A DNA stretch of 64,000 nt from Aphrocallistes beatrix. Its lineage: Eukaryota > Porifera > Hexactinellida > Sceptrulophora > Aphrocallistidae. The position numbers were made by a program, and so were the translations under genes. The notes beneath the pieces were generated by a model that saw only the letters and a program-made list of their open reading frames with translations, was not told the DNA's origin and ran no database searches. Each line of letters begins with the position of its first letter. Within the stretch, counting starts at the first letter, position 1. This document shows positions 1-61,964 of the stretch, piece by piece. Where the stretch lies: positions 12,311,524-12,375,523 of the forward strand of contig OY725488.1 in the NCBI GenBank assembly GCA_963281255.1, given 5' to 3'.

Positions 1-736
1 CGATTGGTCGCTCATTCACCAATTAATATCAGACAGTCCGCTCAATGGACTGTACATTTGGGACTTCCACGGTTTCCTCCCAGTGACAGCTGACAGCCTA
101 TCAGCGCTCTCCTCGCTGAAAGAGTTGTTTTGGGATACGGAACAAGATTGCTACGAAGCATTGCAATACTTGCATCGACTCAGTTCCATCACATACCTCC
201 GTCTACACTCTGCTTCCTGGCCATCTCCTAATCCATCCTACCCAGACTCCATCTCACGACTAATCTCTGAAAATTCCACTTCACTGAGAGAGATCAGTTT
301 ATGCGCTTTAGAAAGAATTGGGTTTGACAGCTGGGGTAGTTGCTTAGATTTAGTTTCAATTTGTTCCAACTTGATATCGTTACAACTCTCCAATTGCAAT
401 TTCACACCTGATGATATGAGTTGCTGGTACAGAGCTTTAACAGTTATGAAGTCACTCGTCTACATGAGACTCCGCTACACTCCATTACAAGATTCTGGAA
501 TGTTGGTACTGTGTCACAGTCTGAATTATCATCCAGCCATTAGGTATTTATGGATAGAACGCTGCGAGCTCAGTTCTAAATCGTGTCTTCCTCTCAAATA
601 TCTCATCTTGACACCTCCACACATCAAAATACTGGATCTTTCCAAGTCCGAACTTTCGAGTCCTGATCCCGAACAGCTGGAACTCCTCGAACAGTCAGCT
701 GAACAATGTTCCATCAAGATTGATTGGGAAGACTAA
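1..736 (+). CDS. NLR-type receptor, C-terminal LRR part (unit A copy, 5' end outside window)
   Basis: The reading frame is open from base 2 to the TAA at 734-736. It encodes the last 245 residues of a leucine-rich-repeat protein. It aligns without a gap to the end of the complete DED/NACHT/LRR gene at 30,427-33,807, at a constant offset of 33,071. Successive repeats show a beta strand of type LxxLxL (for example ITYLRL, LREISL, IRYLWI, IKILDL) every 25-30 residues. By family knowledge the LRRs of NLRs sense ligands or keep the receptor inactive in the cytosol. The start, DED-like domains and NACHT domain lie upstream of the window. The two copies differ almost only at exposed strand positions, as described in the findings. 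The 3' flank is also duplicated. A GTG at 83 could look like a start but is internal. Confidence 0.85.
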   Translation, partial: DWSLIHQLISDSPLNGLYIWDFHGFLPVTADSLSALSSLKELFWDTEQDCYEALQYLHRLSSITYLRLHSASWPSPNPSYPDSISRLISENSTSLREISLCALERIGFDSWGSCLDLVSICSNLISLQLSNCNFTPDDMSCWYRALTVMKSLVYMRLRYTPLQDSGMLVLCHSLNYHPAIRYLWIERCELSSKSCLPLKYLILTPPHIKILDLSKSELSSPDPEQLELLEQSAEQCSIKIDWED

Positions 737-1320
737 CACTCATTGAAGGTAAGTATTCTCTAATTTTAAATTTAAATAATTTAGTTCGATTCAATTCCAA
801 ATCTAATTATACTTTGAATTTAATTTAAACTATTGAATTCCCGCAAAAATTTAATATTTCTGAATCGATTATAAAATAAAACCTCACAGAAGAACAATTA
901 ATTTAATTAATAAAATATTTTAAATTTCTCTTTGAATTTGGTTTAAATATAATTAATTTCTTCATTTCTATAAATAGAATGTCCTACTAATCTATTGGCT
1001 TAGAAGTCTGTGTCATTCATTCACTGATATCTCAATGCAGTACATCTTAACTGTCCTACTTCTCTAGGTGTCAGCTGCTACTCAATCCCCTTTCTCTCTC
1101 TTCCTATTTCACACCTCTATAGTCACCCCTTCCCTGCTATAACACATCTACTCTTCTCCCCACTCTATCTGCTAGAGATTGTCTGCTAGCTTGAACTTGA
1201 ATTGTGTATTTGTCTGAGTTCTGAATAGAAATATCATTAAAACATATAAACTCACTCTATTCAACTTTACTACATCGTTATTATTGGGATAATTTAATTC
1301 GGATTAGAACCAGAATGCTG
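737..1320 (+). other. 3' UTR region of the unit A NLR with candidate intron 749-1077
   Basis: Twelve bases after the stop codon a strong splice donor (AAG/GTAAGT) occurs at 749. A pyrimidine-rich acceptor (TCCTACTTCTCTAG) ends at 1077. Both signals and the spacing are conserved in the duplicate at 33,820-34,137. An ATTAAA lies near 1,235 and could serve polyadenylation. No other coding potential is seen. That this is a 3' UTR intron is an inference; cDNA would settle it. Confidence 0.45.
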
Positions 1321-1329
1321 GTAGTAATG

Positions 1330-1460
1330 TTTTGACCTTACTCGGCGAGGTGTGAAAATTTCACTGAGAATTTAAGATAACTGAGGAATTATATTATTCA
1401 GTGAATGCAAAATTTCTAATTTCTGCCTTGTCCAATTCCTCAGTCGATTCGTTCGAATTT
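1330..1460 (-). mobile_element. Old Helitron 5' end fragment (unit A)
   Basis: On the minus strand this stretch resembles the first ~150 bases of the younger Helitrons in the window. It shows a form of the GAATTGATTGAAGAATTGG block and then TTCACACCTCGCCGAG, as at 29,310-29,425. It is diverged, and the same relic lies at 34,405-34,530 in unit B, so it predates the duplication. Confidence 0.45.
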
Positions 1461-2166
1461 ATAAACAAGAAATCTTTAACATAATACGATTTCATATTTA
1501 CGTATCTTTGGCAAGCTGTTGAAGATTTCATCCTAAATTTCCATCTTATAAGCAATTTTGTTCCAAATTTAGTACAGGTCAATGCTGTAGATTTTCCAGG
1601 ACGTACATATGTAATGCAAGACATGAAACACTATTCATGTAATATTACTAATTCTATTAGAAATGAATAGCATCCTTCTTTTAACACAGAGATCATATTT
1701 TACTAGAATTCTAAACAAATTATTATCAAAGATTTCTATTATTGACAATTAAGTAAATTCATTGTAATTTCGTTCAAGTGACTCATAATTGAAGTGTGCT
1801 TTTTTTCAATTATTTAACTGCTACCATGAGGTTACTTACAACAATCCTATTGCCATATAGCTTGACTATATTACTGCAGATTATCGAACTATGGAAACCC
1901 AAATAAAAAGTTTAAATCTTAAGAAAATCTATATACCTGGAATGACGAATTCATTTGTTGATTCTGACGTATGATACAATTACGAGTAAGATGCTATTGC
2001 CTATTGCTGAACAAGGAGACACATGAAAATTGTCTTAACTACAATTACGGACTTCAGGTATTTGTGTTGGTTTTATACTGTTACAAGTATTTATTGCCTA
2101 ATTAAACATTATAACTATTTTGTGGGAAAGCATGGCCCTCCTGGTCTCCGTCATTTCCGGTTTAAG
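1461..2166. other. Non-coding, shared with unit B
   Basis: The stretch aligns with about 34,530-35,170 until base ~2,040 with scattered substitutions and small indels. No convincing reading frame or RNA gene is seen. Confidence 0.5.
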
Positions 2167-3849: not shown

Positions 3850-6530
3850 ATACAGTGGAACCTGTATATAACGGCCACACACTACAAATGGGTGTAAACA
3901 ATCCAGAACCAGCGGTCAACATACCGGCCCGAACCAGCAACCACCACACCAACAGCAGCAGCAGCAGCAATACCAGCAACCTCAAAACAACAATTACACG
4001 ATACCTACACAAACCTACAACAGCAGATAGACAAAGCCCTGCGCTAAATGCATCGCTGCCGCCACCATGATCACAACCGCTGAATATAAATACACTGACA
4101 AACTAACCTTTAACCCAAAAGTAAACACACTCCAAGAACACCTTAACATCCTCCCAAGAACTCTCCATAAAAGATTTAATGGAATATACGCTTCAATCAC
4201 AGCTGGAACCCCAATCACAGTGAAAGAGGAGGATGCCCGCTCACTACACAACAATCCAAAAGGGAAATTTTCTACCAATATTCAAACCAAAAACCATACC
4301 CACAAGAAAAAGCAACCACATACACTGCCACCAGGGATATCGCACTGCACAGAATGCGCATAACCATAATTACTGCAGCGCAAGCCCAAAAAACTGCGGT
4401 GCAGATCGAACACAAGCTTGTGATAATGGCAGGTGCAGCCACCCACTGATTAAAGAAGAATCCATCTGGAGGTGCAATAACCAATTCACAATACAGTGTA
4501 GCATCCGCGCACTCAACAACAACAGATCGGCAAATTTGTATTAGGGGAAGTAGGATTAAGTGCCTTACCTGCTTCCCTACCCATCACAATGTTTACTGAA
4601 CATTCATGCCAACTCTGTTCAAACTCAACATTACATTACCACTACCTAAACGAAAATTTCAACATTCGCAAACAGATAACGGACCTAAACCGCTTCCAAA
4701 CCAATGGCACTATGCCCCCAGTATTCACGTACTCCACCTGCAATTTGCACGTGGCAGTACTCCTATAAAAACTTATGGAATACGGTAAAAGCTTCCAAAT
4801 CCCTATCAAACAATCTCCCACACCCTTCCTGACTCGTTTCAAACACCTACTAACACTAACCAGAAACACACCACCAATGACAAAATTCACTATCGAAAGA
4901 AACAGAAACCGAACGTACAGCAAATACCAGCAAATATTAAATACATTAGAACAAAAACTCAAACAACAGCAAGCCACAGTACTTTCCGCAGATAAGGGAC
5001 CGGGCCTAATAATTATACAAAATACAACTGTTCTGCAGCTGTACAATGAATGCATAAAGCAAAATGCACAACGTGCACCCTGGCATCTATCTGGACCACC
5101 TAGCAACACCGCCCTACTAAACCCCTTCTAACGATCAAAACTAACGACGACAGAATTCCAACCTTCTACTTTAAAATTTAGACGCATAAAGAAATCTTGC
5201 ACAAATAACCAAACACAAAGAAGTTTACGCCTACAACTTCGGTCCCATAACAATGTGCACCATTGCACGACCAATAGTGAATCACACTAACTCAGTCACG
5301 GTACTGTGTTCAGACATCCTTCGTCCACTAATCTCTCCAACCATAGAAAGGTGCACATATCTAATCCCTGACATATTTAAAACCATCGACGCACTAATGG
5401 CGTTCGAAGCACCCCAAAAATACACATTGGAGACATCGAAGAATTATATCCCTCCACTCCACACAGTCTCATATTCACAGTATTCAAACATTACAACTCC
5501 ACACGAAAGAGGGAACTGCAACTGCTTGAACAACTACTCAAATGCAATTACCTTACAGATGAAAAATAATCTACCACCTAGGTAGAGACAGAATTCCCAT
5601 GGGATTGCCACTCGCCCCAGAACTGGCACGGATATGCACAGCATGCCTGCTAAGAGACTACCAACCACCCATAGAGCAAGCACTAACACTATATTCTGAC
5701 GACGTAGCGGCAACATATCCAATCGACACACTACCATTAAAACCTTACAAATTGATACCAACAGCCGACAATGCTACACAGGATGCCATGTACGACACAA
5801 ACAAAAAGGAATTCAAACCAATCCAACAAAAATACAGGCAAGCAGTTCCCTTGCATCCCCACTCATTCCACCCATCCTCCAAGCTAGCCAAAAAAACTAC
5901 TTCGGTGCAGCATTCCGAGCCACACAAATAGTTCACAACCCAGCTGAAGCACTAGACTACATTCTGCAAAAATACTTACCAGCATTACAGAGGCTCGGAC
6001 ATGACTGCACCGAAGTAGTCGAAAACATGGTTCGCATTGCCTACTTTCCACAAAGATCGGAGAAAAAGAATAATTTAAATACCTTCCAAACATATCATAT
6101 CAATGCTCGGATTGAAATACCCAAAGTGAAGATTTACACAACAGAACCTGCAACTTTTTATAAATGAAGCAAACGAAAACTGCAAACCTGAAATCATTAC
6201 AAACAAGATACAAAAGACAACAGCCAACCAGACTTACCCAACACGCCACTACCCAAAAAGCAAGCACAAAAAGCAGTTTTTAATTAACAGCAGCTACAAA
6301 TCAAACTTCAAGACACAGCACAGCGCTAATACTAATTATATCTAACTCACTACGAACTAGCACTAATACTAATTATTCTAAACTTCAACACACTGCACAG
6401 CGCTAATACATCTTACTCCAAGACATAGCACAGCGAACAAAGAACAAATAAGAAAGAACGTAGCAACAGTAACGATCCATAATAACTACATACCAGCTAA
6501 ATAATAAGGTAATAGTATTTCCAAATTAAA
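3850..6530 (+). mobile_element. Penelope-like retroelement, copy 1 (heavily broken)
   Basis: Fragments of translated similarity run through all forward frames. They match the better copy at 15,560-18,408: the conserved SADKGPG block near 4,995, the CTIARPIVNHTNS block near 5,260, MGLPLAPELAR near 5,600 and YSDDVAATYP near 5,695. The order is that of a Penelope-like reverse transcriptase. About 1 kb of upstream sequence, including a Gln/Ser-rich stretch near 3,930-3,980, is present here and missing from copy 2. The element begins next to a pogo-like terminal motif at 3,852 (CAGTGGAACCTGTATATAAC). It carries many breaks and cannot be functional. The AC-rich tail without genes ends near 6,530. 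Confidence 0.75.
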
Positions 6531-7385: not shown

Positions 7386-7589
7386 GTAGAACCCAATTAA
7401 CTGAAAATATTTTGTATTAGCTGCTATGTGTGAGAGCTATTCCAGTCCTGCCAAAAGTGACCCAATTAAGCAGAGTTGACTAGATAGAAGGGATGCGATT
7501 TATGAGAATTCAAATGCTCTGAAAATGGCACTGTTTAGTGTAACATGTTTATTGAATTTTCTGTTAAATACATTTAGCATAATATTACA

Positions 7590-9965
7590 ATGAACTGGGT
7601 AGCTGTTGAAGGAACAGAGAATAACTTCTCAATCTATGCCCAGCGTCTACAGAGTCTATCGGGCTTGTGTATCTCCAACTTTTCAAATTCTCTCAGAAAT
7701 GTTTACAAATTAAACTCCGCCACTCTTCATAGCCAGTATGGAATAGAAGATATAGTTGACTACTTCCGGTCTATCCCTTATTTCTCTAATTCCACTCAAT
7801 CTGTTCTTCCTTATTGGATTTCAGATCTACTCTACAATCACATTTCAAAAGGAGAAGACTGTCCAAATAATTTTATTGAGGAATTCTTCTCACATCAAGT
7901 CTGTACTCTTTCCAATATAACTTTAGCAAATTTGAGTTCTGTACCACAGATTCATTATAGACTATCGCATCTTAAAACTTACCATCTAACATTACTTGAT
8001 TTCTCAGGGAATCTTAACATTTTTAGTTCTTCTTTGGCACCATTAATCGAGTCTAATGTTTCCCACTCCCTAAGAATCTTAAAACTTCGAGGCTGCACTA
8101 ACTTTGATTCTGTATCTTCACTATTCTGTTTTATGAACCTAGTAGAATTGGATGTGAGTGAGAATGAATATCTCAACTGGGGTTCACACAGTTTGCTAAA
8201 AGCTATGGCTGAAATCTTATCCTCCTTCACTCGTTTACAGACACTGGACCTTCACTTAACTAATCTCCTTTCAACTTGTCACGCTAATAGTATCAACATC
8301 ATGCATGGATTTGCTGCAGGTTTTCCTGATCCATTGGCTTTTGTTAAGTTACAAGAACTGTATTTATTCATTCACACTTCGTATTATATATCATCTTCGA
8401 CCTTTTCTTTTGAAAGCTATGTATGCAAATTCTATGAATTTCTATTTCAACTTCCTTCCATTACTCACCTTGATTTATCAGGTTGGCCATGTCTCAATTG
8501 GCTCCCAGGAAACACTATAACAGACTTCAGTAAGAAATTGTCCTTCTTTGGGCTCTATAATACCGCAATCACAGATGAGAAGTCGGATATTTTGATACAT
8601 TCCGTGGAAGTTACAGGATTATGCGAAGAAAAATACCTGGTACCAACTGTGGTCCGATATCATTGCATTAGTGGCTATTTAACTGAACTCTTTGGTCGTG
8701 TGCATGACAACATAAAAAGGAAATCTGTGGTTTATTCTGATGATACTCTCCTTAAATTGACTCATATTGTGTTAGACGCATTGGATCATTACACCTCTCT
8801 TCTCCTCTCTCCATCTCCTCCTTCAACCTGGAAGAACCTAAAGTTAGTATTGGCCTGTCTTTACTCGCTGGGAAATGTTATTGAAAGTAAGCTGAGTGAG
8901 GCACTTGTACGTCGTTTCATTGACTCTTCTATCACACTGTTACATTATGTCAATGTAAACGAATTTAGCGAACATAGTCTAGTAGGAGTGGTGCTTAATG
9001 CTTGCAAGATCTGCTCATTTTTCTCATCTAATTATTGCTTCGAACAATCCAACCAGACAATGCATTTTGTCTTAGCAAAGTTCATTTTGTATATTATCAA
9101 TGAAGTTTGTCGAGAACCTGACAGGTTGCATTCCCCCACCGATACAAGTCTCTCTTCCATTTTGTACAATGTGCAACTGATTCTCCACAACATGTTATTT
9201 GACCTGGAACCAAACCAAAAGACTTTTGTAGGCATAGATCTTAACGGGATAGACATCCTGATGCACTTCGTAGATATGAAGCTAACTGAGAAAAGGATAG
9301 ACGAGGATCTAGTCTGTGCTTGGAGTATTATAATGAGTTTGACATATCTATGTTTCCCCAACTGTCTAAGATTGTGTAAGCAGGAGCACATTGAGCTGTT
9401 AGTTCGTGCACTGGGAGAAATCTCTCACAAGAAGTTGATTGGAGAGATCATGGGCTCTATTGAAAATATCGCAGAATTCTGCATTCAGGAAGAATCAGCA
9501 GCTGTTTCTTCTCAGCTGTTGGCTTCGGTACTCACAGTGCTACATAATCACGATATATACAATCAAAACGCTATCTCGTCTGCCATCGCGTCTTCCGCTT
9601 ACTTCGCAATGGGAAGTGAGAAGTGGGGCTGGGAAGAGAGTGGAGAAGAGACACTGTCTCTAGCTGTTGAGTTGATTAGCGTGTTAGATTACCGTGTAGC
9701 TCGAGTCAATGCTAGTTACAAAACCTTAGATTTCTTAGTAGAATGCTTGGGAGCAAAAGAAAAAAGGATTGTGTTGTGTGCGTTATGGATTATTTGTAAC
9801 CTAGTGTATGAGAAACCTGAATTTTACTTGAATCTTCTGACTGAGGAGACAATCAAAGTGATATACGGAATCATGTCTTCTCATTCAAATGATTCCATTT
9901 TCCATAAACTGTCGAGAGAAGTTGTGAAACTGTCTGAAATCACTACCAAATGTGCAGAGTTATAA
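7590..9965 (+). CDS. ZYG11/ZER1-like LRR-armadillo protein, putative CUL2 ubiquitin-ligase substrate receptor
   Basis: This is a single open frame of 791 codons. The ATG at 7590 is the first Met after an in-frame TAG at 7575. Residues 27-36 (SLSGLCISNF) fit the BC-box pattern LxxxCxxxF that binds Elongin B/C. It is followed by an N-terminal helical region. Leucine-rich repeats occupy about residues 130-330, for example LRILKLRG, LVELDVSEN, LQTLDLHLTN and ITHLDLSGW. The remainder to the C terminus is helical and looks armadillo-like (LKLVLACLYSLGNV, LCALWIICNLVYEKPE). This order and length match the ZYG11/ZER1 family, whose members recruit substrates, including N-terminal glycine degrons, to CUL2 ligases. 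The gene has no intron and no close copy in unit B. The family call rests on architecture and motif fit; a generic LRR-ARM protein is the alternative. Confidence 0.6.
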   Translation: MNWVAVEGTENNFSIYAQRLQSLSGLCISNFSNSLRNVYKLNSATLHSQYGIEDIVDYFRSIPYFSNSTQSVLPYWISDLLYNHISKGEDCPNNFIEEFFSHQVCTLSNITLANLSSVPQIHYRLSHLKTYHLTLLDFSGNLNIFSSSLAPLIESNVSHSLRILKLRGCTNFDSVSSLFCFMNLVELDVSENEYLNWGSHSLLKAMAEILSSFTRLQTLDLHLTNLLSTCHANSINIMHGFAAGFPDPLAFVKLQELYLFIHTSYYISSSTFSFESYVCKFYEFLFQLPSITHLDLSGWPCLNWLPGNTITDFSKKLSFFGLYNTAITDEKSDILIHSVEVTGLCEEKYLVPTVVRYHCISGYLTELFGRVHDNIKRKSVVYSDDTLLKLTHIVLDALDHYTSLLLSPSPPSTWKNLKLVLACLYSLGNVIESKLSEALVRRFIDSSITLLHYVNVNEFSEHSLVGVVLNACKICSFFSSNYCFEQSNQTMHFVLAKFILYIINEVCREPDRLHSPTDTSLSSILYNVQLILHNMLFDLEPNQKTFVGIDLNGIDILMHFVDMKLTEKRIDEDLVCAWSIIMSLTYLCFPNCLRLCKQEHIELLVRALGEISHKKLIGEIMGSIENIAEFCIQEESAAVSSQLLASVLTVLHNHDIYNQNAISSAIASSAYFAMGSEKWGWEESGEETLSLAVELISVLDYRVARVNASYKTLDFLVECLGAKEKRIVLCALWIICNLVYEKPEFYLNLLTEETIKVIYGIMSSHSNDSIFHKLSREVVKLSEITTKCAEL

Positions 9966-10249: not shown

Positions 10250-10255
10250 TTTGTA

Positions 10256-11042
10256 CCATAGACTCCTTTAAGTAAGGACTGTAGGCGTTCAATCTCGGGT
10301 CCTGGGACTTGGGTCCATTGTGTATTATTGATTTCCCGTAATCCGCTCAAGTTAGACATGGGAGATGTATTATTGTTGAATAGGAAGTCGTATTTTTAGA
10401 GTCCATTGGTCATGATGGCCTACCTCAACTATGTGTGGAATGTGAGTTATGTGGTTTTTCACACCTGTTTTTCACAGATTTAAGATACATTTTGGCAATT
10501 TTCTGACCTGTTTTAAGCACATTTTAAAGCGTTATTAATGTAGGATTTTCGAAGATAATCAAGGTAGGAACGGGTTAATTCGAAATATTTGGACATTTCA
10601 AATGGAATGTTGCTACATTCCAGCGTTGCTATGGAAACGTATGTATACCATTTGAGCCGATATCTTGAAAACCGTTACAGCTAGACAGGCAAATTTGACT
10701 ATATTTGATAGATAATAGGTTACTTTCTATTAGCTCCTAATACATTTTTTAACATTAAATCTTAAGGTTTTCGAGATATGGTGCAATATATTTTATGAAT
10801 CATATTTGTTAAATTGCACCATATCTCGAAAACCTTAAGATTTAATGTTAACTCACATTCCACACATAGTTGAGGTAGGCCATCATGACCAATGGACTCT
10901 AAAAATACGACTTCCTATTCAACAATAATACATCTCCCATGTCTAACTTGAGCGGATTACGGGATATCAATAATACACAATGGACCCAAGTTCTAGGACC
11001 CGAGATTGAACGCCTACAGTCCTTACTTAAAGGAGTCTATGG
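10256..11042. mobile_element. Foldback/MITE element, 194-bp terminal inverted repeats, 6-bp target duplication
   Basis: The 194-bp arms 10,256-10,449 and 10,849-11,042 are inverted copies with few mismatches, beginning CCATAGACTCC. They are flanked by an exact direct repeat TTTGTA at 10,250-10,255 and 11,043-11,048. A second, inner inverted repeat (10,751-10,787 and 10,813-10,849) abuts the right arm. The 300 bases between are unpaired and resemble the arm of the larger palindrome at 12,576-13,359. There is no coding capacity. The superfamily is uncertain; 6-bp duplications are unusual among common animal DNA transposons. Confidence 0.8.
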
Positions 11043-11078
11043 TTTGTACTTATCCTTACTATTTTAAAACTTGATTAA

Positions 11079-12575: not shown

Positions 12576-13359
12576 TAAACATGGTATCAAAGTACATATA
12601 TCCGTTGGAAAATTTTCGATTAGTCATCATATCATTGCGCAAGGACAATTTTAGCGATTTTCTAAGCTGTTTTAACCCTATTTCTAAATGGTATTAAGGT
12701 GTGATTTTTGTGTAGAACCAAGATTAGTACAAGGTGATTTGAATAATTTAGAAATTTTCAATGGAATGTTGTTACATTCCTACGTTGCTATGGTAAAGCA
12801 TTTTGGTCAGTTTGGGCCATTTCATGCAAACTGTAATGATTAGAGCTCCAAATTTGATTGTGTTTGATAGGCAATGGACTACTTCCTATTAGGTGATAAT
12901 ACAACTTGAACTTCTAAATTCAACGAGTTTTGAGTTATGGATTGATTTTAAGAATGTGACCAAAACACTAAATTGTCGCATAACTCTGTAGTCTGTGAAT
13001 TTAGAAGTAAAATTTGTATTATTACCTAATAGGAAGGAAGTAGCCAATTGCCTATCAAATATGATCAAATTTGAAGACCTAGTTCTTACAGTTTGCAGGA
13101 TATGGCTCAAACTGGTCAAAATGCTTTACCATAGCAACTCAGGAATGTAACAAAATTCCATTGAAAAATTCTAAATTTTTCAAATCAACTCGTACTAATC
13201 TTATTTCTACACAAAAACTCTACCTTAATAACATTTAGAAGTAGGTTTAAAACAGCTTAGAAAATTGCCAAAATCCTCCATAAAATGACCTGTTGCGCAA
13301 TGATATGATGACTAATCGAAATTTTGACAACGGATATATGTACTTTGATGCCATGTTTA
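12576..13359. mobile_element. Large palindromic element, ~390-bp arms, TA at both flanks
   Basis: The ends read TAAACATGG and CCATGTTTA, with TA on both outer sides. The arms pair along their length with moderate divergence around a centre near 12,970. Each arm contains a block (about 12,640-12,900) also found once inside the foldback at 10,450-10,750, including GGAATGTTGTTACATTCC. There is no protein. It could be a MITE dimer or a foldback transposon. Confidence 0.6.
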
Positions 13360-14639: not shown

Positions 14640-15540
14640 ATAATATTAAGATCACAAAATGCTGCGTAATCGTAAAGATTTAGCATAATTTAAAAATAAA
14701 AGTGTTAGGTGCCAATCTCCATATAATGTCCCATCACAAAAATTTCAAGTGTTTACATTTTAAACTGTCAATAGGAGAGGCAGTACGGTCGCACACCTTC
14801 ACTCATTCCAGAACTGTGCACCTATACATTTGATTGGATCATAGTTCCTATCCACGTACTAGTATCTTATAATAATATAAATTTATAAATAACATTTTGT
14901 AATATAGGGTGAACTGTGTAATAATCATAATTCCCACGCTCCTAAACCCTTTTGGAGTTAAAATCATGCGCCTGAAGGCGCTTTATATACGCTCCTTGAT
15001 AATTCCTTTTGTGTTTGAGACAGGAAGACTACATTATACGTGGTTCGAATCCACGGGCTAAGCGTAACGGGGCTTTAGGGCCTTCAGGCATGCCTGCTAT
15101 GACATGTAGTCTGTCGTTTAGGCTACTGCAGATCTGAGTCTAAGTGACTAGCCAAGCCAGTAATTTGCATGTCTCTGGTTCATTCTGATATCCCATAAAG
15201 GAAAAGAGCCAATTTCACCAATTATTTACTTAACTAACTGTGACGAGTGAGTTTGAAATGGACAGACACATCCTGAATTCCACTGAATACTCGCCTAGAC
15301 GATTGAAATAGGCTGTAGGTACAGGCCCGGCGGGAACTAATTTTATTGGTCCGGCCATGGACCTACAAATAGATTCCGGACCAAATTGACTATCCAAAAT
15401 TTACTGGCCTTGAAGTAGCAGCAAGCTGGGGGGTCTGAGGTGCTTAAGCCTCCTAATGGGGTCCATGGAAGCTGACCAACATCCGTTCATTCTTTTTCCA
15501 GATTCTTCTAATTTTGTCGTTCTGGAAATATAAATTAACT
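14640..15540. other. No gene; isolated tRNA-like T arm at 15,039-15,055
   Basis: A perfect TpsiC stem-loop (CGTGG-TTCGAAT-CCACG) containing a box B is present. No matching acceptor strand, anticodon arm or box A was found upstream. It may be a tRNA or SINE relic. The inverted pair CTGAAGGC/GCCTTCAG lies about 110 bases apart around it. The remainder has no supported feature. Confidence 0.35.
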
Positions 15541-15559
15541 CCGAGGACAATCCTCTCAT

Positions 15560-18408
15560 CGCTGTGACATCCCAGAGATATTTCAACATAGATAAAAAGA
15601 AAAACAACACATATAAAAAGTTCCAACAAACGCTAAACACACTGGAACAGAAGCTAAAACAGCAACAGGCGACAGTACTATCAGCGGATAAGGGACCCGG
15701 ACTATTAATAGCACAAAATACAACTGTACTGCAAATATACAGAGAATACCTAAAACTCAATGCACATAACGTGCACCCGGCAATCTACATAGACCATTTA
15801 AACAATATCAGGGACACACTCGCAAAACTAAACCCCCTCCTAACATTGAAGACAAATGATGACCGAGTTCCAACCTTCTACTTCAAGATCAAAACGCACA
15901 AAGACGTATTTAACGCGCAGCCAACAAAGCACAAGGAGATCTACACATACAACATAGGGCCAATAGTAATATGTACCATAGCTCGCCCCATTGTTAATCA
16001 TACCAACTCAATAACGGTCCTATGCTCCGACATACTCCGGCCCCTCATCTCCCCAATAATAGAAAGGTGCAAATATCTAACGCCAGACATCTTCAAAACT
16101 ATAGATGCACTCATGGCATACGGAGCACCATCTCAAATATATACAGGGGACATAGAAAAATTCTACCCGTCCACCCCACACACACTAATAATAACAGCTT
16201 TCCACCACTACAATACCCAACAAAAGAAGGAACTACAACTACTCAAAGAACTCCTCAAATATAACTACCTAACTGATGGAAAAAACTTCTACCACCTGGG
16301 AACAAAAGGAATCCCAATGGGACTGCCACTGGCGCCGGAACTAGCACGCATGTGTACAGCGTACCTACTAAGGAATTACGAACCACCAATAGGGGAAGCA
16401 CTAACTCTATACTTTGATGATGTGGCAGCAACCTATCCCATCAAAGCTCTACCTCTAAAACCGTTCAACCTACTACCCACCACCGATAATACAACACAGG
16501 ACGCAACATACGACACTGCGAAAAAAGATTTTTGCCCTTGCAGCAAAAATACAGACAAGCTGTCCCACTACACCCCCACTCATTCCATCCGTCGACCAAA
16601 CTCGCGAAGAAAACCTACTTCGGTGCAGCATTCCGAGCCACTCAGATAGCGCACAACCCAGCAGAAGCACTGGACTACATGCTGAGAAAATATTTACCAG
16701 CGCTACAACGGCTCGGACATGACTGCACCGAAGTAATCGAGAACATGGTCCGGATCACGTACTTTCCTAAAAGAACGGAAAAGAAAGACGTGAAATACAC
16801 GCCCAGCATTCAATATCAATTTTCGGATACCAGACCGACTAAATCCCAACTCGAACCGTTCCAAAACAACAAGGAATACAAACTACAGGCAATCACACCC
16901 ATGCCACCAATACTTAAGCTCCAATGCTTCACACCGAAAAGACATAAAGCCAACCACGTGATATTCCCTTGCCCCAACTACAGTTGCCCAATGTGCAGGC
17001 AATATGAACACATCGAGAGCCTAAATGCAAGCATCAATGTCCCAATCATCCCCTGCTTAAGGTACAGAAGTACATATATACTATTCAAGCGAAACGAGGA
17101 GCACATAAAACACGCCTATATAGGAACAACAAACCTACAAGAAACTAACATTTGCAACGTGGGGAAATACAACAGGATACGCATACATCTAAAGGAAAGA
17201 AAAAACATCGGATGGCAATACCTAACTTTATACGGTGCGAAAGACAAAATGCCACAAGGCGAAAAAACAAGGAAACACAAAGAATGGGAAAAGAAAATTA
17301 AACATAAATACCCCAGAATCCGATTGTTTTCTACAGACGAACTCGTAAGATTTTACGAGATATGCGACACGTATAACCCAGAATAAAAAGGCCGCCAAAT
17401 CTTCTAAACTCGTTCCTACCCCCGCATCTAAATCCCCTCGAACTTTCATAACACCGGACGAAAAAAAACCCATATCCCACTGCACTCACACAACATCGAA
17501 CAGAAAACCCCCTCAAATCTCCCCCGAACAACTACATTCCCCAACCAAAACACCATTACCGCCCGCCCTTTTATATGACTCGTTTCTTTACACTATCCAA
17601 CTTTTTGCTACTTTTTATAATTGAAGAAACCACAACCTACTACTCTTTCATACAATTCAAGAAACCGCAACCTACTACTCCTTTTTTCTAATCCAATATA
17701 CTACTCCTTTTTAATCCAAGAGAACTCACCCCATAAACCACGACAACTCCTACCTATACTCAGAACTAACTACAGCTACAGCTAATTAGAACATTAAAGT
17801 AGCAACAGTAGACTACCAGTGCTATTACACTTTAGCCACTACATTCCTACTACATTCCAACTACAGCATTTCAATTACTACATCAACTACTACATCCTAT
17901 ATTAGAATACTTCCAACTACATCTGGAAATAGAATACGATGATTTACTACTACATCCTATATTAGAATACTTCCAACTACATCTGAAAATAGAATACGAT
18001 GATTTACTACTACATCCTATATTAGAATACTTCCAACTACATCTGAAAATAGAATACGATGATTTACTACTACATCCTATATTAGAATACTTCCAACTAC
18101 ATCTGAAAATAGAATACGATGATTTACAGCTAAAATACCAGAAACAGAAAGCGTAGCAACTCAAGCACGCAAACTTAACTTAACACAGAAACTGCACAGA
18201 GAAAACTAAATAAAGAATAAAACCAAACGTCACTGACTCGAACACAACACGAACTAAATACAGAACTAAAAAGGCACAAATCAGAACATTGAAACATAGA
18301 AAGATAAAGAACTTGAAGAGACTTAAATAGTCGAAAGATTAACAATTGTACATCTTGTTCAACTTAATATTACTGTAATTTTGCTAATTGATTATTATTA
18401 AAATCATA
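15560..18408 (+). mobile_element. Penelope-like retroelement, copy 2 (5'-truncated, broken)
   Basis: Two long forward frames (15,564-16,649 and 16,532-17,386) encode a reverse transcriptase and then a linker and endonuclease. Reverse-transcriptase landmarks are SADKGPG, IYTGDIEKFYPS (motif A), GIPMGLPLAPELAR (motif B) and LYFDDVAATYP (catalytic YFDD, motif C). After the RT come a cysteine cluster (CPNYSCPMC) and a candidate GIY-YIG endonuclease (TYILFKR then HAYIGTT and a downstream Arg). This is the domain order of endonuclease-bearing Penelope-like elements. The copy starts well inside the element compared with copy 1, as expected from incomplete reverse transcription. It is broken. The long AC-rich tail contains a 60-bp minisatellite, and its 3' edge abuts a hAT sequence at 18,409. 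Confidence 0.8.
17886..18125. repeat. 60-bp minisatellite, four units, inside the Penelope-like tail
   Basis: Four head-to-tail 60-base units beginning TACATCCTATATTAGAATAC occupy the stretch, with one substitution between the first and later units. The unit length is divisible by three, so a minus-strand frame stays open by chance. The near identity points to recent expansion. Confidence 0.9.
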
Positions 18409-20030
18409 CACAAACGATACTTCCATTTATCTGTGTTGTGCTGAGGGAGCACAAGTTCAATTCTCTTCGGAAAGGTACCATTTGGTCCGTGATTTTAGAT
18501 TAATCCACTGATATTACTTCCAACAAGAACCTCTGTTTGTTGAGCAAGACTCATAGTGAAACTACATTCATTGGTATTGTTTCTCTTGATGATGGACGAG
18601 GGGTGACCATCGCTAACGCCACTAAGAAGTTATTTGAGAAGTATTGTACTCCTCTGGCCAACTGCTGTGGAATTGGAAGCGATGGGGCAAGCTGTATGAC
18701 AGGTCAAGTCAATGGCTTCTTGAAGTTCTGTCAGGATATGGTCAGGGAAGCTCGTGGTGACAAAGGTGTACGAGATAGTGTTATCCAGGTTCACTGCGTT
18801 TCAAACCGTGTTGCACTAGCCGCCACTGATGTATACTCACTTAAAGGTGACGAAGGTAAATCTTTGGCAGTGTTGACCAGCTGTGTCGTGTAGCATATTC
18901 CTTCTTCGCAAGGTCAACCATAACCAGGAAGGAGTACATGCAACTTCAGTCTACGTTCTCAAACTCAAACTCCTCAATTCTCTCTGTGAGACCAGGTGGA
19001 TCGGCGCTACCGATGTATTGCTACTCTTGATGACTATGGCAAGGCAATGCAGCAATTCATTCATGGAAACCTCCGTCTGAGATGCACGACAGAAGTGCGT
19101 TTATTCGCAGTTCTACAATGACCACGTGAGGGACTTGCATGATCTGCACCGCATACTACACATTGTGTGGTCTCAGCCAGCGCACACAGCGAGAGAATTC
19201 ATCGCTTTGGCGGGCATTTGTTCACGCACTCAGCGCACAGAGTCACATCTCAGAGCTGTCTGAACTGGGGTCTTTGGGAAAGAAGCTGGAGAAGGCGTTT
19301 GTCTCCTTGATAGCAAAGCTGTTCCCTATGGATGATGCTTGTGCGGTTATGCCTTTTGATTTTCACTGCTATGCGAGAGAAGCGAGAAGTTTGTCAAAAG
19401 AGAAGTGAAGAAAGCTATTTTATACATTGTGAAGAAGAGTCAGTATCACTTTTATGGAGAGAATAAATCAACCCTGCAATCGCTCTACATTGATTACAGA
19501 AAATGTGAAATTTACGCCATTCAACATGGAATGCCGCACCTCCAAGATGTGTAAAGCATCTTTTGCAAGAGCTGTGTTCTGATTCTTCAAAGTTGGTGGA
19601 TATTGTTAGTTGTTTGCCTGATAGTTCTGCAGCCGCAGTGCGAGTGTTCTCTGTTCAAAATAGAATTAAGAACAAATACCGAAACAGTTTATCTATCCAC
19701 GTTCTTGATCAACTAATGACGGCGAGACTCCTGGAAGTTCAAAAGTGTATGAAACCAATGCAATTGAGCAGTGATGTTCCAAGAAAGATAGAAGAGTATG
19801 CAAAAGCAAATCTGGTGTAAAGAAGATTAAATCCAACTTACTCAGTGCAATCCTGGAAAGAGTGCATTGGATCTAGACAGTGATACAAGTGAAGGTGAAG
19901 ATTCCATCCCTGAAGGAGATTATGCTGACAGTGAAGATGGAGATTCAGACTGGATTGAGGAGCAACATTGGCCTAGCACTGTGACATATCTGAAGGCTGG
20001 GAAAGCGATTGATATTTAATAGTAGATTTT
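18409..20030 (+). pseudogene. hAT transposase remnant (unit A)
   Basis: Forward frames carry hAT transposase landmarks. They include CGIGSDGASCMTGQVNGF followed by a ValHisCys motif (18,640-18,810), and near the end SVQNRIKNKYRNSLSIHVLD (19,640-19,700), the usual C-terminal region. The family resembles ZBED/DUF4371-type hAT proteins. The coding sequence is interrupted by several stops and frameshifts, for example after 18,893 and 19,078. The N-terminal part, including the DESTDIT aspartate region, is missing or damaged. Homology to the fuller copy at 49,930-52,050 begins exactly where the Penelope-like tail ends. Confidence 0.7.
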
Positions 20031-21465
20031 ATTGAGTTAGCATGAAATAACATGGAAGTTATTGTGTGCTAAGTTTCTCTTATAGTAAGTATACCAACAA
20101 ACTTAAATAGGAAAAATATTGTATATACCCTCTAGTTTGGGCATGCCCCTCAAATTTCCGGGCAACCACTCAAAAAGGCCAATTTTATGGGGGGAGTAAG
20201 ATCGAAAATGGAGAAAATTCCGAGGGGTACCCCCGAATTGCCTAGAGAGAACACTGGGGGGAACAGTTACCTTTATTCAGACGTTCAGATAGGAAAGATA
20301 ACTTTCAGGAGAAATCTAATTGCTCCATCTTGTACTGCCTAGAAACAATCTAAAAATTGATGCACTCATTTCAGAAGTGTGCCACTATACATAGCATTGT
20401 ATGCAAACTGACAGTGACTCCAGCATCGATAGCTGTTGTTAAATATCTCATAGTTTGAATCGATTGATTTCCTCTTTTTTTCGAATTTTGAACATGGATG
20501 CACGAATTTTGGGAGTCCGCCTGTACTTATAAATTTATTTATCTATAACTTCTCCGATTCATGAGAACCTGTTCTATGTCTCCATTTCTTTCCTTCTTTT
20601 ATTCTATTCATTCAGCCTAGCTAGAGCGAGTCTACCAGAGAAGATTCTATAAGATTTGAAATTTGTCATCCATGGTCCATCATCCTATTCTGCTATAAGA
20701 TGAGGAAGCTTTACTCAAGAAGGAACGCACTCCTGAACCAGGGATGAAGCAGACAAGTTCCATTCTCTCTAATATTAGGTTTGTTGCTTTGTTTATTTAT
20801 TTATTTATTTTTGTTTGTTTGTTTGTTTGAATCACTTTGGCTACGACTCTGCTAAATTGTCTCAATACTCAATTTATATTGTAGAGGGATTTGTCAGAAT
20901 CTTAAGGTTGTCATTAGTCAGAATTTCCTTTACTGGCGTTTGTCAGAATCAGTTTTATCAGTTCTGACTTTGTTAGAGTGGGAGTTCTATTCTAGTTTCG
21001 TGAGAGTTTGGTTGAGTGGCATTTTAGTTTTTTAGAATTAATGGGAGAGCGAATGTGAGCATTTGCAGAGTAATATACATAAGAAAGTTGTGAAAAGGAG
21101 CTAGATTCTGACAAAGATTCTGACAAATGCAAGTCCATGGTACATATTATATACGGTATTAGGCAAATTGTTAATGTCGAATAAAATATTGTTAGTTTGA
21201 CAAGTTTTTGTTTCATCATTGTCGAATGCGAAACTCTATCGCAGTGACTTCATTCAGTCTGACAGTCTGGAGGTCTGGGACCAACAAGACCCTCCCTACG
21301 CCTCTGATACTCGTTTAGTTCAAATTAATCCTATTCTCGTTTTCTGTGAATTTTTCACTCAGGTGTCTCTAAGTCCTATTATGTCCTAAGTCCTATTATG
21401 TCCTTTGTAAGGTTTGAATAATATTACTCCATTAATCCATGATAGTGAGAAGATTTTATAAAGTA
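20031..21465. repeat. Duplicated non-coding tail (partner 52,040-53,570 and pieces to 57,390)
   Basis: The hAT remnant is followed by non-coding sequence shared with unit B, including GTGTGCCACTATACATAGCA. Unit B contains an extra 302-bp MITE where this copy reads GTCATTAGTCAGAA near 20,911. A third partial copy of 20,578-20,900 lies at 54,407-54,770. No gene is seen. Confidence 0.6.
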
Positions 21466-25394: not shown

Positions 25395-25570
25395 TTCAAC
25401 AGCGCACTTCGCACACTAGCGTAGCGCGGCTAGCGAGCACTTTTGTTCGCAGAGTCGCGGAGATTTCAACAAATACAGAATCGATAGATTGAAAATGCCA
25501 AATTAGGAATCTACGTCACTAAACTCCATGTCAACAGTTGAACTAGTTTCTAACAACTCTATACTAGGAA
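25395..25570 (-). mobile_element. Old Helitron 3' end fragment (unit A)
   Basis: Reverse-complemented, 25,400-25,470 aligns with the GC-rich 3' end of the young Helitrons (CGACTCTGCG then AGCCGCGC then GCGAAG). The adjoining bases match the interior (CCATGTCAACAGTTG versus CCATGTCAACTGTTG). It is diverged, and the partner at 62,888-63,050 shows it was present before the duplication. Confidence 0.5.
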
Positions 25571-30426: not shown

Positions 30427-33400
30427 ATGTCAGAATCAAAGAAGCTGCAAGCAGAAGTGTTCATGGAACTGGAAGGCATGCTAACACCTCAGATAATCCG
30501 CACGCTAGGAAACGCTGTGAACGTTCCCGCACGAATAATGGAGAACGCCGAGACTAATCCGATCAAGTTCCTGTTCAGACTGAAAGAGTGGGACCAGTTG
30601 GACCCCGCTCTCTTCGACCAGGCTCTACAGAGCATCAGTGGACGCATGGTGCACAGCGCCAGGAAGCTCTCGTGGCTGAGCAACCCTCAGCACACCCACT
30701 CTTCCCCCCGAGCTCAGACACGGTCCGTCGCAGGCTTCGTCCAGCTGCTGACAGACGAACTCACCTCCCAGCAGTGGATGGTGCTGGCCAACACTTCGGA
30801 AGAGAAGGAGACGAGATCCATGCTGAGAGAGTGTGTGGACAGTAAGCTCATCTCCAAAGACACCAGCGACCTCTGTGAGTTCCTAAAAATAGTAAAGCGA
30901 AACGATTTGTCAGAAAAGGTTCGTACCTATGCACCCGCATTCCAAAAAATGTCGAAAGAAACGTTCGATTCGCAACTCCATCAGGAGATAAGCCATGATG
31001 AAATCGACAGTAATGCTGGCTTAGACATTTGTCTTAAACGTTACATGAAAACGCACAACAAAGACGTAAACGTCGTCCTTGACGAAGGCAGTGTCCCGAT
31101 CGAATCCGTCTACACACCTCTCACTGTGATTAAGGTGAAGCCAGCCGAAGAGAGAGTGAAAGAGGAAAGCGGCATTAATGAAATCGACTTCCTAAGAAAT
31201 ATCCATAACAGAGTTCACCTCCAAACCGTAGAAGTAGTAGACTTTGAGTCAATCGTCACTACGAGTCCGAGCAGCGATAATTCCATCTGGTGCTTGATCG
31301 GCAACCCCGGTAGTGGTAAGAGTTTTCTCTGCAAGCACTTCGCCTATTTATATGGTACCCACTCCCTGACCAATTTCAGCTACGCCCTTTCTATTCCTTG
31401 TCGTAGCAAAGAGTGGCACAAACTGGAAGAAGCGAGGCACGAAGCGGGAAACCCAGTCGACGAGGAGTTCATTGTCAGTTGGCTGGCACTTTCCATGTCA
31501 TTTGGCGCCAAATGGACCAAATCCCTGACCCAACACCTGCTAAGATCCGATGGAGACGGCCTTTTCATTATCCTCGACGGCGTGGATGAGTTCTCGAGGA
31601 ATGTTCCGTTTGAAACGACGCTGCTTTGCAAAATCCTGGAGAGGCGTTTCCTCACGTTTAGCACCATTTTGGTGACAAGCCGTCCGAGTGCTTGGTCCGA
31701 CCTGAGTTTCAACCACGGCTCCCAATTCAAGATTAGCGGCAATTTCCAGGTCCTCGGTTTCTCTCCAGAAAACCGAGACATCTACTTTGGTAAGCGAATG
31801 GCAACCGTAGACAAACTGAACGCCGTTTTTAAGATGTTTTACCGCCACGAGGAAATCGAACAACTCGCACTGGTCCCAGTGAATGCTAGTTTGTTCACTT
31901 CACTGTTCAACAACTCCGATTCCATCCTCACTACCACCCTTTCCCACATCTACACACAGCTGGTCGTGTACATCATTCGTCGCCAGTTGTGCCGGATGGG
32001 TCTTGATGAGCACAGTGACGTCCGCGAACTGTCCAAGTTCCATCCCGGGATCAGGAAGTGCATTCGCGCCATTGGGAAGGAAGCGAATCAGGGCCTTTTC
32101 GACCGAGACCTCACTTCCGATAAGAACATTCCTTTGAAGATCGGAGATGAAATATTAAGTAGCGAGCGACTGGGTCTGATGCATGCGCATATCAAAGTGG
32201 TTGGTTTCGGTCATCGTGTGAAGGTGTGGACATTTCAGCACCTCACCATCCAAGAGTTCATGACCGCTCTGTCCATCTGCTCCAACTCGTGGACAAAGCA
32301 GTGCTTCATTGTCCGGTACATAAGTTCCAGTGTCCAGTACCTGTCCATCTACAAGATGGTGATTCGGTTTGTGAGTGGCATCTTGAGACAGAACGCAGGT
32401 CGCATCACGCCCATTCTCTGTCGACATGTAATCCCTAAACCACTGTCTCTCTCCGAAGTACCGATGATTTATCAGCTGTGTTATTTCATTGAACTTGTTG
32501 ATGCTTCAGGCTGGATTGAATTCACAAAATCATTCCTATTATTATCCACTCTAATTAGCGAAATGAATTGTGATTCTATTTGTGAGCATTTCGCCTATTT
32601 TAAGAAACAGTTTCCTTACCCAATCTACTTGAATTTCGACTTCACTGTGTCACCAAATGAATGGCATTGTTTCATACAATCATTGAAATACGTTCACAAC
32701 TTTCATGTAATATTTATTCATTCCGGTTTTATTAAATCAACACAGTTCAATTCTCTGCTCCCAGCACTCTCCTCTTGCCATCTGGATTACTTAGCACTCG
32801 CTTTTGTTAATGAAGATTTCGAAACGATCCTTTCCTTCACTGGTCCGCTCTCCTCTGCCACTCTACCTGCTAGCACCAGAATTGGCATTGATTTCATATC
32901 GTGTGATCTGACAGCTTGTAACGATTCTCAGCTGCTGTTCCCTTCCACCAACCAATTCACTGGAAGTTTGAGTTTATATGAATCTGCAATGAAGCATTCA
33001 ATGCTAGAGAACTTGACCAATCAATTCAGGTCATTACACAATTTGTTCTATAGGCCCAAGTCGAATGATTCCGATTGGTCGGTCATTCACCAATTAATAT
33101 CAGACAGTCCGCTCAATGGACTGTACATTCAAGACTTCCACGGTTTCCTCCCAGTGACAGCTGACAGCCTATCAGCGCTCTCCTCGCTGAAAGAGTTGCA
33201 TTGGGAAACGAAACAAGATTGCTACGAAGCATTGCAATACTTGCATCGACTCAGTTCCATCACATACCTCCGTCTAACCTCTGCTTCCTACCCATCTCCT
33301 AATCCATCCTACCCAGACTCCATCTCACGACTAATCTCTGAAAATGCCACTTCACTGAGAGAGATCAGTTTAATCGGTTTAGACGAAATTGGGTTTGACA

Positions 33401-33807
33401 GCTGGGGTAGTTGCTTAGATTTAGTTTCAATTTGTTCCAACTTGATATCGTTACAACTCTCCAATTGCAATTTCACACCTGATGATATGAGTTGCTGGTA
33501 CAGAGCTTTAACAGTAATGAAGTCACTCGTCTACTTGAAGCTTGAATACACTCCATTACAAGATTCTGGAATGTTGGTACTGTGTCACAGTCTGAATTAT
33601 CATCCAGCCATTAGGTATTTACTCATATATCGCTGCGAGCTCAGTTCTAAATCGTGTCTCCCGATCAAATATCTCATCTTGACACCTCCACACATCAAAA
33701 TACTGCGACTTTCCAAGTCCGAACTTTCGAGTCCTGATCCCGAACAGCTGGAACTCCTCGAACAGTCAGCTGAACAATGTTCTATCGAGATTGTATGGGA
33801 AGACTAA
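30427..33807 (+). CDS. NLR-type receptor: DED-like/DED-like/NACHT/LRR, complete single exon
   Basis: One open frame of 1,126 codons starts at the first ATG after an in-frame stop. Residues ~8-75 and ~100-172 each look like a death-effector-type six-helix domain (for example FVQLLTDELTSQQW and LCEFLKIVKRNDLSEKV). The NACHT domain follows, with Walker A GNPGSGKS at 292-299 and Walker B LFIILDGVDE at 379-388. The TSRPSAW sensor comes next, then LGFSPENRDIYF, as usual for NACHT ATPases. A helical region follows, and from about 720 to the end come leucine-rich repeats. NLRs are cytosolic sensors that oligomerise with ATP and recruit effectors through death-fold domains. The first two thirds are visibly GC-richer than the LRR part, with the change near 32,430. 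The gene is paralogous to the partial one at 1-736. Domain order and NACHT call are firm; DED rather than another death-fold class is likely but not certain. Confidence 0.92.
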   Translation: MSESKKLQAEVFMELEGMLTPQIIRTLGNAVNVPARIMENAETNPIKFLFRLKEWDQLDPALFDQALQSISGRMVHSARKLSWLSNPQHTHSSPRAQTRSVAGFVQLLTDELTSQQWMVLANTSEEKETRSMLRECVDSKLISKDTSDLCEFLKIVKRNDLSEKVRTYAPAFQKMSKETFDSQLHQEISHDEIDSNAGLDICLKRYMKTHNKDVNVVLDEGSVPIESVYTPLTVIKVKPAEERVKEESGINEIDFLRNIHNRVHLQTVEVVDFESIVTTSPSSDNSIWCLIGNPGSGKSFLCKHFAYLYGTHSLTNFSYALSIPCRSKEWHKLEEARHEAGNPVDEEFIVSWLALSMSFGAKWTKSLTQHLLRSDGDGLFIILDGVDEFSRNVPFETTLLCKILERRFLTFSTILVTSRPSAWSDLSFNHGSQFKISGNFQVLGFSPENRDIYFGKRMATVDKLNAVFKMFYRHEEIEQLALVPVNASLFTSLFNNSDSILTTTLSHIYTQLVVYIIRRQLCRMGLDEHSDVRELSKFHPGIRKCIRAIGKEANQGLFDRDLTSDKNIPLKIGDEILSSERLGLMHAHIKVVGFGHRVKVWTFQHLTIQEFMTALSICSNSWTKQCFIVRYISSSVQYLSIYKMVIRFVSGILRQNAGRITPILCRHVIPKPLSLSEVPMIYQLCYFIELVDASGWIEFTKSFLLLSTLISEMNCDSICEHFAYFKKQFPYPIYLNFDFTVSPNEWHCFIQSLKYVHNFHVIFIHSGFIKSTQFNSLLPALSSCHLDYLALAFVNEDFETILSFTGPLSSATLPASTRIGIDFISCDLTACNDSQLLFPSTNQFTGSLSLYESAMKHSMLENLTNQFRSLHNLFYRPKSNDSDWSVIHQLISDSPLNGLYIQDFHGFLPVTADSLSALSSLKELHWETKQDCYEALQYLHRLSSITYLRLTSASYPSPNPSYPDSISRLISENATSLREISLIGLDEIGFDSWGSCLDLVSICSNLISLQLSNCNFTPDDMSCWYRALTVMKSLVYLKLEYTPLQDSGMLVLCHSLNYHPAIRYLLIYRCELSSKSCLPIKYLILTPPHIKILRLSKSELSSPDPEQLELLEQSAEQCSIEIVWED

Positions 33808-34404
33808 CACTCATTGAAGGTAAGTATTCTCTAATTTTAAATTTAAATAATTTAGTGCGCCTCAATTCCAAAACTAATTATACTTTGAATTTAATTTAAA
33901 CTATTGAATTCCCGCAAAAATTTAATTTTTCTAAATCGATTATAAAATAAAGCCTCACAGAAGAACGATTAATTTAATTAATAAAATATTTTAAATTTTT
34001 CTTTGAATTTTGTTTAAATAGAATTAATTTCTTCATTTCTATAAATAGAATGTCTACTAATCTATTGGCTTAGAAGTCTGTGTCATTCATTCACTGATAT
34101 CTCAATGCAGTACATCTTAACTGTCCTACTTCTCTAGGTGTCAGCTGCTACTCAATCCCTTTCTCTCTCTTCCTATTTCACATCTCTATTACTCACCCCT
34201 TCCCTGCTATAACACATCTACTCTTCTCCCCACTCTATCTGCTAGAGATAGTCTGCTAGCTTGAACTTGAATTGTGTATTTGTCTGAGTTATGAATAGAA
34301 ATATCATTAAAACATATAAACTCACTCTATTCAACTTTACTACATCGTTATTATTGGGATAATTTAATTCGGATTAGAACCAGAATGCTGGTAATAATGT
34401 TACG
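33808..34404 (+). other. 3' UTR of the unit B NLR with candidate intron 33,820-34,137
   Basis: The donor AAG/GTAAGT sits 12 bases after the stop codon, and the acceptor TCCTACTTCTCTAG ends at 34,137. Both are identical to unit A. An ATTAAA lies near 34,306. The short distance between stop and junction would not trigger decay by the vertebrate 50-nt rule. Confidence 0.45.
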
Positions 34405-34530
34405 ACCTTACTCGGCGAGGTGTGAAATTTTCACTGAGATTTTTGAGCTAACTGAGGAATTATATTATTCACTGAATGCTAAATTTCTAATATCTGCCTT
34501 GTCCAATTCTTCAGTCAATTCTTTCACGTA
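34405..34530 (-). mobile_element. Old Helitron 5' end fragment (unit B)
   Basis: This is the duplicate of 1,330-1,460. The reverse strand shows CACACCTCGCCGAGTAAG and the GAATTGACTGAAGAATTGG block of the Helitron 5' end. It is diverged and non-coding. Confidence 0.45.
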
Positions 34531-47855: not shown

Positions 47856-47903
47856 TTGTTCACTTGTAGTCTTATCTTAGTAATATTCTCTCAAGTTGAG
47901 TGG

Positions 47904-61962: not shown

Positions 61963-61964
61963 TA

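Follow-up and report, generated by a model that had tools for sequence, protein, structure and literature searches.

The window analyzed here is a stretch of 64,000 nucleotides of contig OY725488.1 (positions 12,311,524 to 12,375,523, forward strand) from the hexactinellid sponge Aphrocallistes beatrix. It contains the 3' end of one putative NACHT-LRR (NLR) gene, hereafter copy 1 (locus L004), and the whole of a second, hereafter copy 2 (locus L001). The full copy 1 gene lies at G000:C1:12308882-12312256, with its start ~2.6 kb upstream of the window. The NLR features are as follows.

1..736, + strand: 3' end of copy 1 in open frame; last 244 codons with LRRs 7-15, stop codon at 734-736
737..1373, + strand: 3' flank of copy 1, homogenized with the copy 2 flank at 33808-34443
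30427..33807, + strand: complete copy 2, one open frame of 1126 aa with a helical N-terminus, a NACHT domain, helical domains, and 15 LRRs
30427..31041, + strand: N-terminal module of copy 2 (residues 1-205), helical and weakly DED-like, separately exchanged
31288..31794, + strand: NACHT NTPase domain of copy 2 (residues 288-456), placed by Pfam
32614..33804, + strand: LRR domain of copy 2 (residues 730-1126), placed by motif positions and the DSSP strands of the structure model
33808..34443, + strand: 3' flank of copy 2, homogenized with that of copy 1; identity drops beyond it

Right behind the copy 1 stop codon, a GT donor-like site can be read from the sequence, and repeat family D12 spans positions 1120-1373 in the copy 1 flank at 97%. 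Elsewhere in the window, a 795-aa open frame at 7578-9965 (+) is related to ZER1 (Pfam ZER1-like_2nd, E = 8.2e-15; LRR_Zer-1 below its cut-off), and a tandem pair of NHL-repeat open frames, ~71% identical in DNA, lies at 46037-46939 and 47838-48803 (+). An OTU-protease-like frame was found at 41789-42469 (+; Pfam E = 3.9e-7), with a similar-looking frame, judged by eye, at 39109-39645 (-). The mobile-element-like sequences include a reverse-transcriptase frame at 15534-16649 (+; RVT_1, E = 2.2e-8), an open mariner-type transposase frame at 60690-61787 (-; HTH_48 and Transposase_1), and a further transposase-like frame, by eye, at 36412-37029 (-); positions 4886-6112 are 74% identical to 15582-16828. 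Large inverted repeats at 10255-11043 and 12643-13279, with arms 98% and 85% complementary, are perhaps mobile-element palindromes. The segments 18402-26510 and 50395-64000 make up the second, collinear block of a ~32-37 kb tandem unit, in which matching pieces, 76-97% identical, are separated by insertions.

Copy 2 matched the NACHT family (PF05729) with E = 8.6e-15 and 55.4 bits against a cut-off of 26.7. NACHT was the best match among its 8 Pfam families at E ≤ 0.1, and NB-ARC was not among these eight; among the five relatives scanned, NB-ARC appeared only in P0023 (E = 0.061, below the cut-off). By sequence, the LRRs matched ribonuclease inhibitor and NLRP LRR proteins (best E = 8.6e-16), and the matches to Pfam LRR models all fell below their cut-offs. 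The N-terminus of copy 2 resembled a DED with E = 0.034, and those of its relatives P0096 and P0101 with E = 1.4e-5 and 2.1e-5, all under the Pfam cut-off; the Pfam scan found no DED in P0001, P0002, or P0023. An AlphaFold model of copy 2 (81 aligned sequences; mean pLDDT 87, pTM 0.74) placed helical N-terminal regions before an NTPase core and 15 strands in the C-terminal part, most with helices between them. The best Foldseek matches of this model by E-value were NLRP3, NLRC4, and NOD2 (TM-scores 0.2-0.5). By its domains and predicted fold, copy 2 is a putative animal-type NLR.

We searched the genome assembly (G000; 100.5 Mb, 28 contigs) for related genes. A protein search yielded at least 41 NLR matches (421 first-look candidates, of which 41 were scored), and at least 94 NACHT matches passed the Pfam cut-off (94 of 176 scored). 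Of 30 loci, 29 carry complete open frames of 1116-1151 aa. One contig holds six close NLR genes in a span of ~280 kb, in the order L002, L006, L004 (copy 1), L001 (copy 2), L005, and L003. Large stretches of the window are present twice in the same order, as would be expected if two alleles of one gene had been placed in tandem by the assembly. However, the whole proteins of the two copies differ at ~26% of residues, a forced alignment of their 5' flanks gives only 37-45% identity, and six such genes occupy the 280 kb; an assembly artifact of this kind is hardly credible.

To compare LRR positions, we used the hydrophobic pattern to assign position 4 of each repeat; at that stage the variable codons of clades I, C1c, C1b, and C6 were known, but not the per-position counts. 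In copy 2, position 4 falls on residues 735, 762, 789, 821, 848, 873, 899, 924, 948, 980, 1009, 1037, 1065, 1093, and 1120. Fourteen of these 15 residues lie inside a predicted strand of the structure model and the last lies 1 residue ahead of its strand. The residues at +1 and +3 from each position 4, that is, positions 5 and 7, vary most; strand alternation and general knowledge of LRRs suggest that they face the concave side.

An earlier note on this sequence had aligned window positions 2-736 with 33073-33807 without gaps and counted 21 replacement and 5 silent codon differences. Our codon comparison gave exactly these figures: 26 of 245 codons differ, by 42 bases in all: one base in 14 codons, two in 8, and all three in 4. 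Four of the five silent changes lie at most two codons from a replaced codon. Replacements are strongly concentrated at LRR positions 5 and 7, where 12 of 18 codons differ versus 9 of 226 other codons (Fisher, 6e-11, with position classes of our own assignment), although the statement that nearly all of them sit there went too far, since 12 of the 21 do. Among the nine outside positions 5 and 7, five come directly after the strand (positions 8-11), one is a conservative M/L exchange at position 4, which is buried, and the remaining three are at other sites.

The near-constancy claimed for the untranslated, non-coding sequence was overstated, holding only close to the genes: the 3' flanks are 95% identical in the first 250-base window and 98% in the second, but 91% in the third and at most 84% beyond. 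Window positions 1-2038, coding part included, match copy 2 at 88%. For the whole genes, the notion of paralogs that differ almost only at exposed LRR sites breaks down, as the full proteins are 74% identical. Measured in 50-column windows, DNA identity between the copies is 55-60% in the first 300 codon columns, 58-84% in the following 450, and 92-97% in the remainder; the notion therefore fits the LRR cassette and not the receptors as wholes. Likewise, the two receptors do not share one frame throughout: the LRR cassette is common to both, but the N-terminal and NACHT parts have diverged. The first observation thus had its numbers and its direction right and its scope too broad.

We then scored eight DNA clades of close paralogs, covering 32 of the 41 loci (L001-L041); L008, L018, L022, L023, L028, and L029 were excluded as too distant, L019 as broken, and L031 and L036 as incomplete. 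In clade I, which comprises the six genes around the window, amino-acid-variable columns made up 14 of 15 at position 7 and 10 of 15 at position 5, versus 1 of 15 at buried position 4 and 0 of 15 at buried position 6. Pooled over the eight clades, the variable fraction was 0.71 at position 7, 0.57 at position 5, 0.43 at position 8, and 0.10-0.12 at positions 4 and 6. Silent-only changes among invariant residues ranged from 0.05 to 0.14, with no peak by LRR position. At the variable sites, tyrosine made up 14.4% of residues versus 3.6% at the rest, tryptophan 2.8% versus 1.3%, and phenylalanine 4.1% versus 4.6%. The ENA protein P0002, a close relative of L003 (an allele or a paralog), differs from it at 15 of 30 position 5/7 residues.

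A peak at positions 5 and 7 was also present in 12 of 13 protein clusters and absent in one (P0066/P0070/P0071/P0074). These clusters of at least three members were drawn from the hits listed (120 of 190), with proteins >1050 aa only, and they are not independent of the DNA clades, as some genes are common to both. Among the DNA clades, C6 departs from the pattern: 1 of 15 columns varies at position 5, and 1 of 15 at position 7. The members of C6 (L026, L027, and L030; G000:C6 5.10-5.13 Mb) are close NLR paralogs free of position 5/7 diversification and offer a natural control.

We fitted a two-class codon model with separate omega for positions 5/7 and for all other codons, using one tree per clade. 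In clade I, omega was 10.5 at positions 5/7 versus 0.49 elsewhere (2dlnL 322), a value that is approximate, like those below, because recombination breaks the single-tree assumption. The corresponding values were 24.5 versus 2.28 in C1c, 16.2 versus 1.56 in C20b, 14.0 versus 1.28 in C1b, 7.4 versus 0.86 in C2, 5.7 versus 0.98 in C4, and 5.6 versus 0.83 in C20, and across these seven positive clades 2dlnL ranged from 49 to 322. Only in C6 did the two-class model bring no significant improvement (0.5 versus 0.80). Since omega also exceeded 1 outside positions 5/7 in C1c, C20b, and C1b, selection is not confined to these positions.

The concentration of replacements at exposed strand positions, as first proposed from the window pair, was thus borne out by the omega contrast in clade I and recurred in seven of eight DNA clades and 12 of 13 protein clusters. 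The contrary outcomes that the earlier note had named, an even spread of replacements or dN/dS well below 1 at the strand positions, were found only in C6 (omega 0.5) and in one protein cluster. The same rates bear on the idea that the LRRs are dispensable and drift under relaxed constraint. Paralogs are many, and 5 of the 41 NLR matches contain internal stop codons, as might be expected of decaying genes; however, omega lies well above 1 at positions 5/7 (>5 in seven clades), the buried positions are conserved, and 36 of the 41 matches are free of internal stops. We consider relaxed constraint extremely unlikely.

Because recombination makes one tree per clade an approximation, we also ran a tree-free test on the motif-defined position 5/7 codons of seven clades (C6 left out). 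Base 1 differed in 35% of pairs and base 2 in 34%, whereas the silent C/T wobble differed in 2.9% (95% bootstrap 1.0-5.3). Elsewhere in the LRRs of the same clades, the wobble differed in 3.5% of pairs, giving a ratio of 0.83 (0.28-1.58). In C1c, bases 1 and 2 differed in 34 and 25% of pairs and the wobble in 0 of 163; in C6, bases 1 and 2 differed in 4 and 2% and the wobble in 8%. Position 5/7 codons change where the amino acid alters and hardly at the adjacent silent base. With the wobble at background, both indiscriminate hypermutation and long-kept variants are therefore disfavored.

Long-kept variants would mean that the variable codons are old balanced states, between which short gene-conversion tracts homogenize the frame; a similar homogenization has been proposed for MHC introns. 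Consistent with such an origin, blocks of states recur in different genes (L002 and L004, for instance, have codons 1030-1040 in common, including a silent marker), recombination is clear in the LRRs of clade I, and silent changes are mildly enriched near variable codons. Old codons should, however, carry old wobble, and the upper bound on wobble divergence at positions 5/7 is 1.58 times that of the rest, with no differing pair in C1c. We regard old balanced variants as unlikely.

The silent enrichment takes two forms. When all amino-acid-variable codons are taken together, the wobble differs more often (35 of 337 columns) than at invariant codons (96 of 1585; p 0.006), and 4 of the 13 silent changes in clade I lie adjacent to a hypervariable codon (p 0.03-0.05) and 6 of 13 within two codons (p 0.016), hinting that some variable patches are perhaps older. 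As a general sign of old or mutated patches, proximity of silent changes found no support in the wobble test on motif-defined codons.

A programmed mutator, either AID-like or a retroelement that rewrites chosen codons, could also make the variation in the strand codons. Multi-base changes within codons do far exceed random placement: L037 and L041 differ by 12 double and 2 triple replacement codons, where 2.6 and 0.04 are expected. An indiscriminate mutator fails, however, on the wobble base of the same codons, which is spared, and C6 carries the same kind of LRRs without the pattern. A programmed mutator is, in our judgment, very unlikely. Adenine-only rewriting, as by diversity-generating retroelements, was rejected as a candidate: all three bases vary in columns such as CAA/TGG/ATA/GAC/AGC or CGA/GAT, and TGG, CAA, GAA, and CGA occur in the variable columns, unlike the adenine-specific substitution of AAY templates.

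The five full genes of C1c allowed the NACHT and LRR parts to be set side by side over 10 pairs. The NACHT block (480 codons) shows 8-12 replacement and 14-30 silent differences per pair, whereas the LRR part (~440 codons) shows 34-44 replacement and 2-9 silent differences. In g37/g41, for example, there are 8 replacement and 29 silent differences in the 480 NACHT codons and 44 and 2 in 438 LRR codons. The NACHT-bearing block of C1c is under purifying selection. In 10 of 10 pairs, silent divergence is lower in the LRR part (0.007-0.030) than in the NACHT block (0.043-0.092), so that, judged by silent sites, the LRR cassette is the younger part, although its amino acids have diverged far more. 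As a rough estimate assuming ordinary mutation rates, silent divergence of about 1% would take some hundred thousand to millions of generations, which suggests that selection suffices, with ample time for ~20 replacements per lineage.

The genes are mosaics, in which the N-terminal, NACHT, and LRR parts have separate histories. L001 and L002 are 97% identical in the NACHT part and not in the N-terminus, with a switch near codons 200-209; the best relative of the L001 N-terminus among 29 full-length loci is 48% identical, and L002 is not among its six best matches. In C1c, it is mainly the N-terminal part that sets g38 and g39 apart, both from g37, g40, and g41 and from one another (silent divergence 0.30-0.34 versus 0.05-0.09). 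The first 2.75 kb of L003, which run from 1.5 kb upstream to about codon 400, are 99-100% L004-like; its LRR is ~95% like L004 and L001 alike, and from ~620 bp past the stop codon it is 98-100% L001-like, where L004 is 80-86% or less.

All six clade I genes are at least 90% identical to one another through the final ~350 codons of the LRR cassette and ~500 bp of 3' flank. Farther out, the flanks are mostly different; exceptionally, L003 and L004 are alike upstream and L001 and L003 downstream, where L006 also resembles these two, though less closely. By the PHI test, recombination was evident in the clade I LRR, with 107 informative sites and 0 of 2000 permutations, and likewise (0 of 2000) across complete C1c genes; the signal was weak in the C4 LRR (0.0125) and not significant in the C1c LRR alone (0.139).

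Overall, our analyses make it very probable that the window samples a tandem NLR array within a large germline repertoire, in which selection has diversified the LRR face on a fixed scaffold and modules have been exchanged besides. NLR genes with one long open frame each would stand in a tandem array, part of the large repertoire of a ~100 Mb genome. The LRR would form a ligand-facing solenoid whose scaffold stays constant while very strong diversifying selection replaces strand positions 5 and 7 and, less so, 8-10. Unequal crossing-over or gene conversion would swap modules, namely the N-terminal part, the NACHT part, and the LRR cassette with ~500 bp of 3' flank. Such exchange would spread and re-sort binding faces, keep silent sites and the near flank alike among paralogs, and probably pair a new face with different signaling parts. 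The concave face would bind ligands, presumably microbial, and binding would trigger NACHT oligomerization and death-fold signaling; these NLRs would thus serve as putative immune receptors.

A different germline process might instead target replacement changes to the LRR strand codons, for instance if very short templated patches, distinct from one another at non-silent bases only, were exchanged again and again. We consider such a process highly improbable; if true, the repertoire would diversify faster than point mutation and selection allow, an invertebrate route to anticipatory receptor diversity.

Diversification of the concave LRR face is textbook knowledge for plant R proteins. The hypervariable plant NLRs, such as RPP13 and RPP1, are described under an xxLxLxx model as having variable concave LRR strand residues, positive selection, and clusters with recombination or gene conversion (PMC8226289). 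They come closest in behavior to the sponge genes, which are best read as a putative animal analog of selection on the LRR surface combined with module exchange. Here too, the hypervariable residues fall at LRR positions that strand alternation suggests are concave, and the aromatic enrichment at variable sites is partial (tyrosine and tryptophan up, phenylalanine not). The sponge genes differ in having a NACHT rather than an NB-ARC NTPase and ribonuclease-inhibitor-type LRRs, and their variability is seen between paralogs of one genome, whereas that of plants was measured between individuals.

Agnathan VLRs likewise combine an LRR scaffold with variable concave residues, but are somatically assembled and extracellular. 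The comparison with them made in the earlier note holds in the sense of "works like" only: the sponge loci are complete germline NACHT genes (29 of 30 open), unlike incomplete germline genes, with no sign of somatic assembly. The zebrafish NLR-B30.2 genes are presented as a very large family in which gene conversion differs by domain (NACHT versus B30.2) and recognition modules have spread across NACHT groups; the same account reports positive selection in B30.2 and calls the LRRs not particularly variable (PMC4852459). In the sponge, by contrast, diversification falls on the LRR itself.

Sponge NLRs of Amphimedon (AmqNLR) and Dysidea avara are described as expanded NACHT-LRR families that cluster by species (PMC12909245), and the family here is expanded as well. 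The Dysidea avara account as consulted describes no per-position selection, and the term "positive selection" is absent from its main text (PMC12909245). The sponge family is a strong and clear-cut example of a known principle, in a setting for which the literature surveyed did not describe it. None of the literature matches listed, by their titles and abstract beginnings, described per-position LRR selection in an invertebrate NLR family; priority cannot be claimed, as the 2014 study of Amphimedon NLRs by Yuen et al. may already report LRR diversification.

In this sponge NLR family, diversifying selection with omega values of 5-25 falls on LRR positions 5/7 in seven of eight clades, a role that in zebrafish is taken by B30.2. 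The position 5/7 pattern names the residues that are likely to bind ligand in many receptors. Direct ligand recognition through the LRR by invertebrate NLR expansions, a question of long standing, thereby becomes testable, with C6-like groups as built-in controls.
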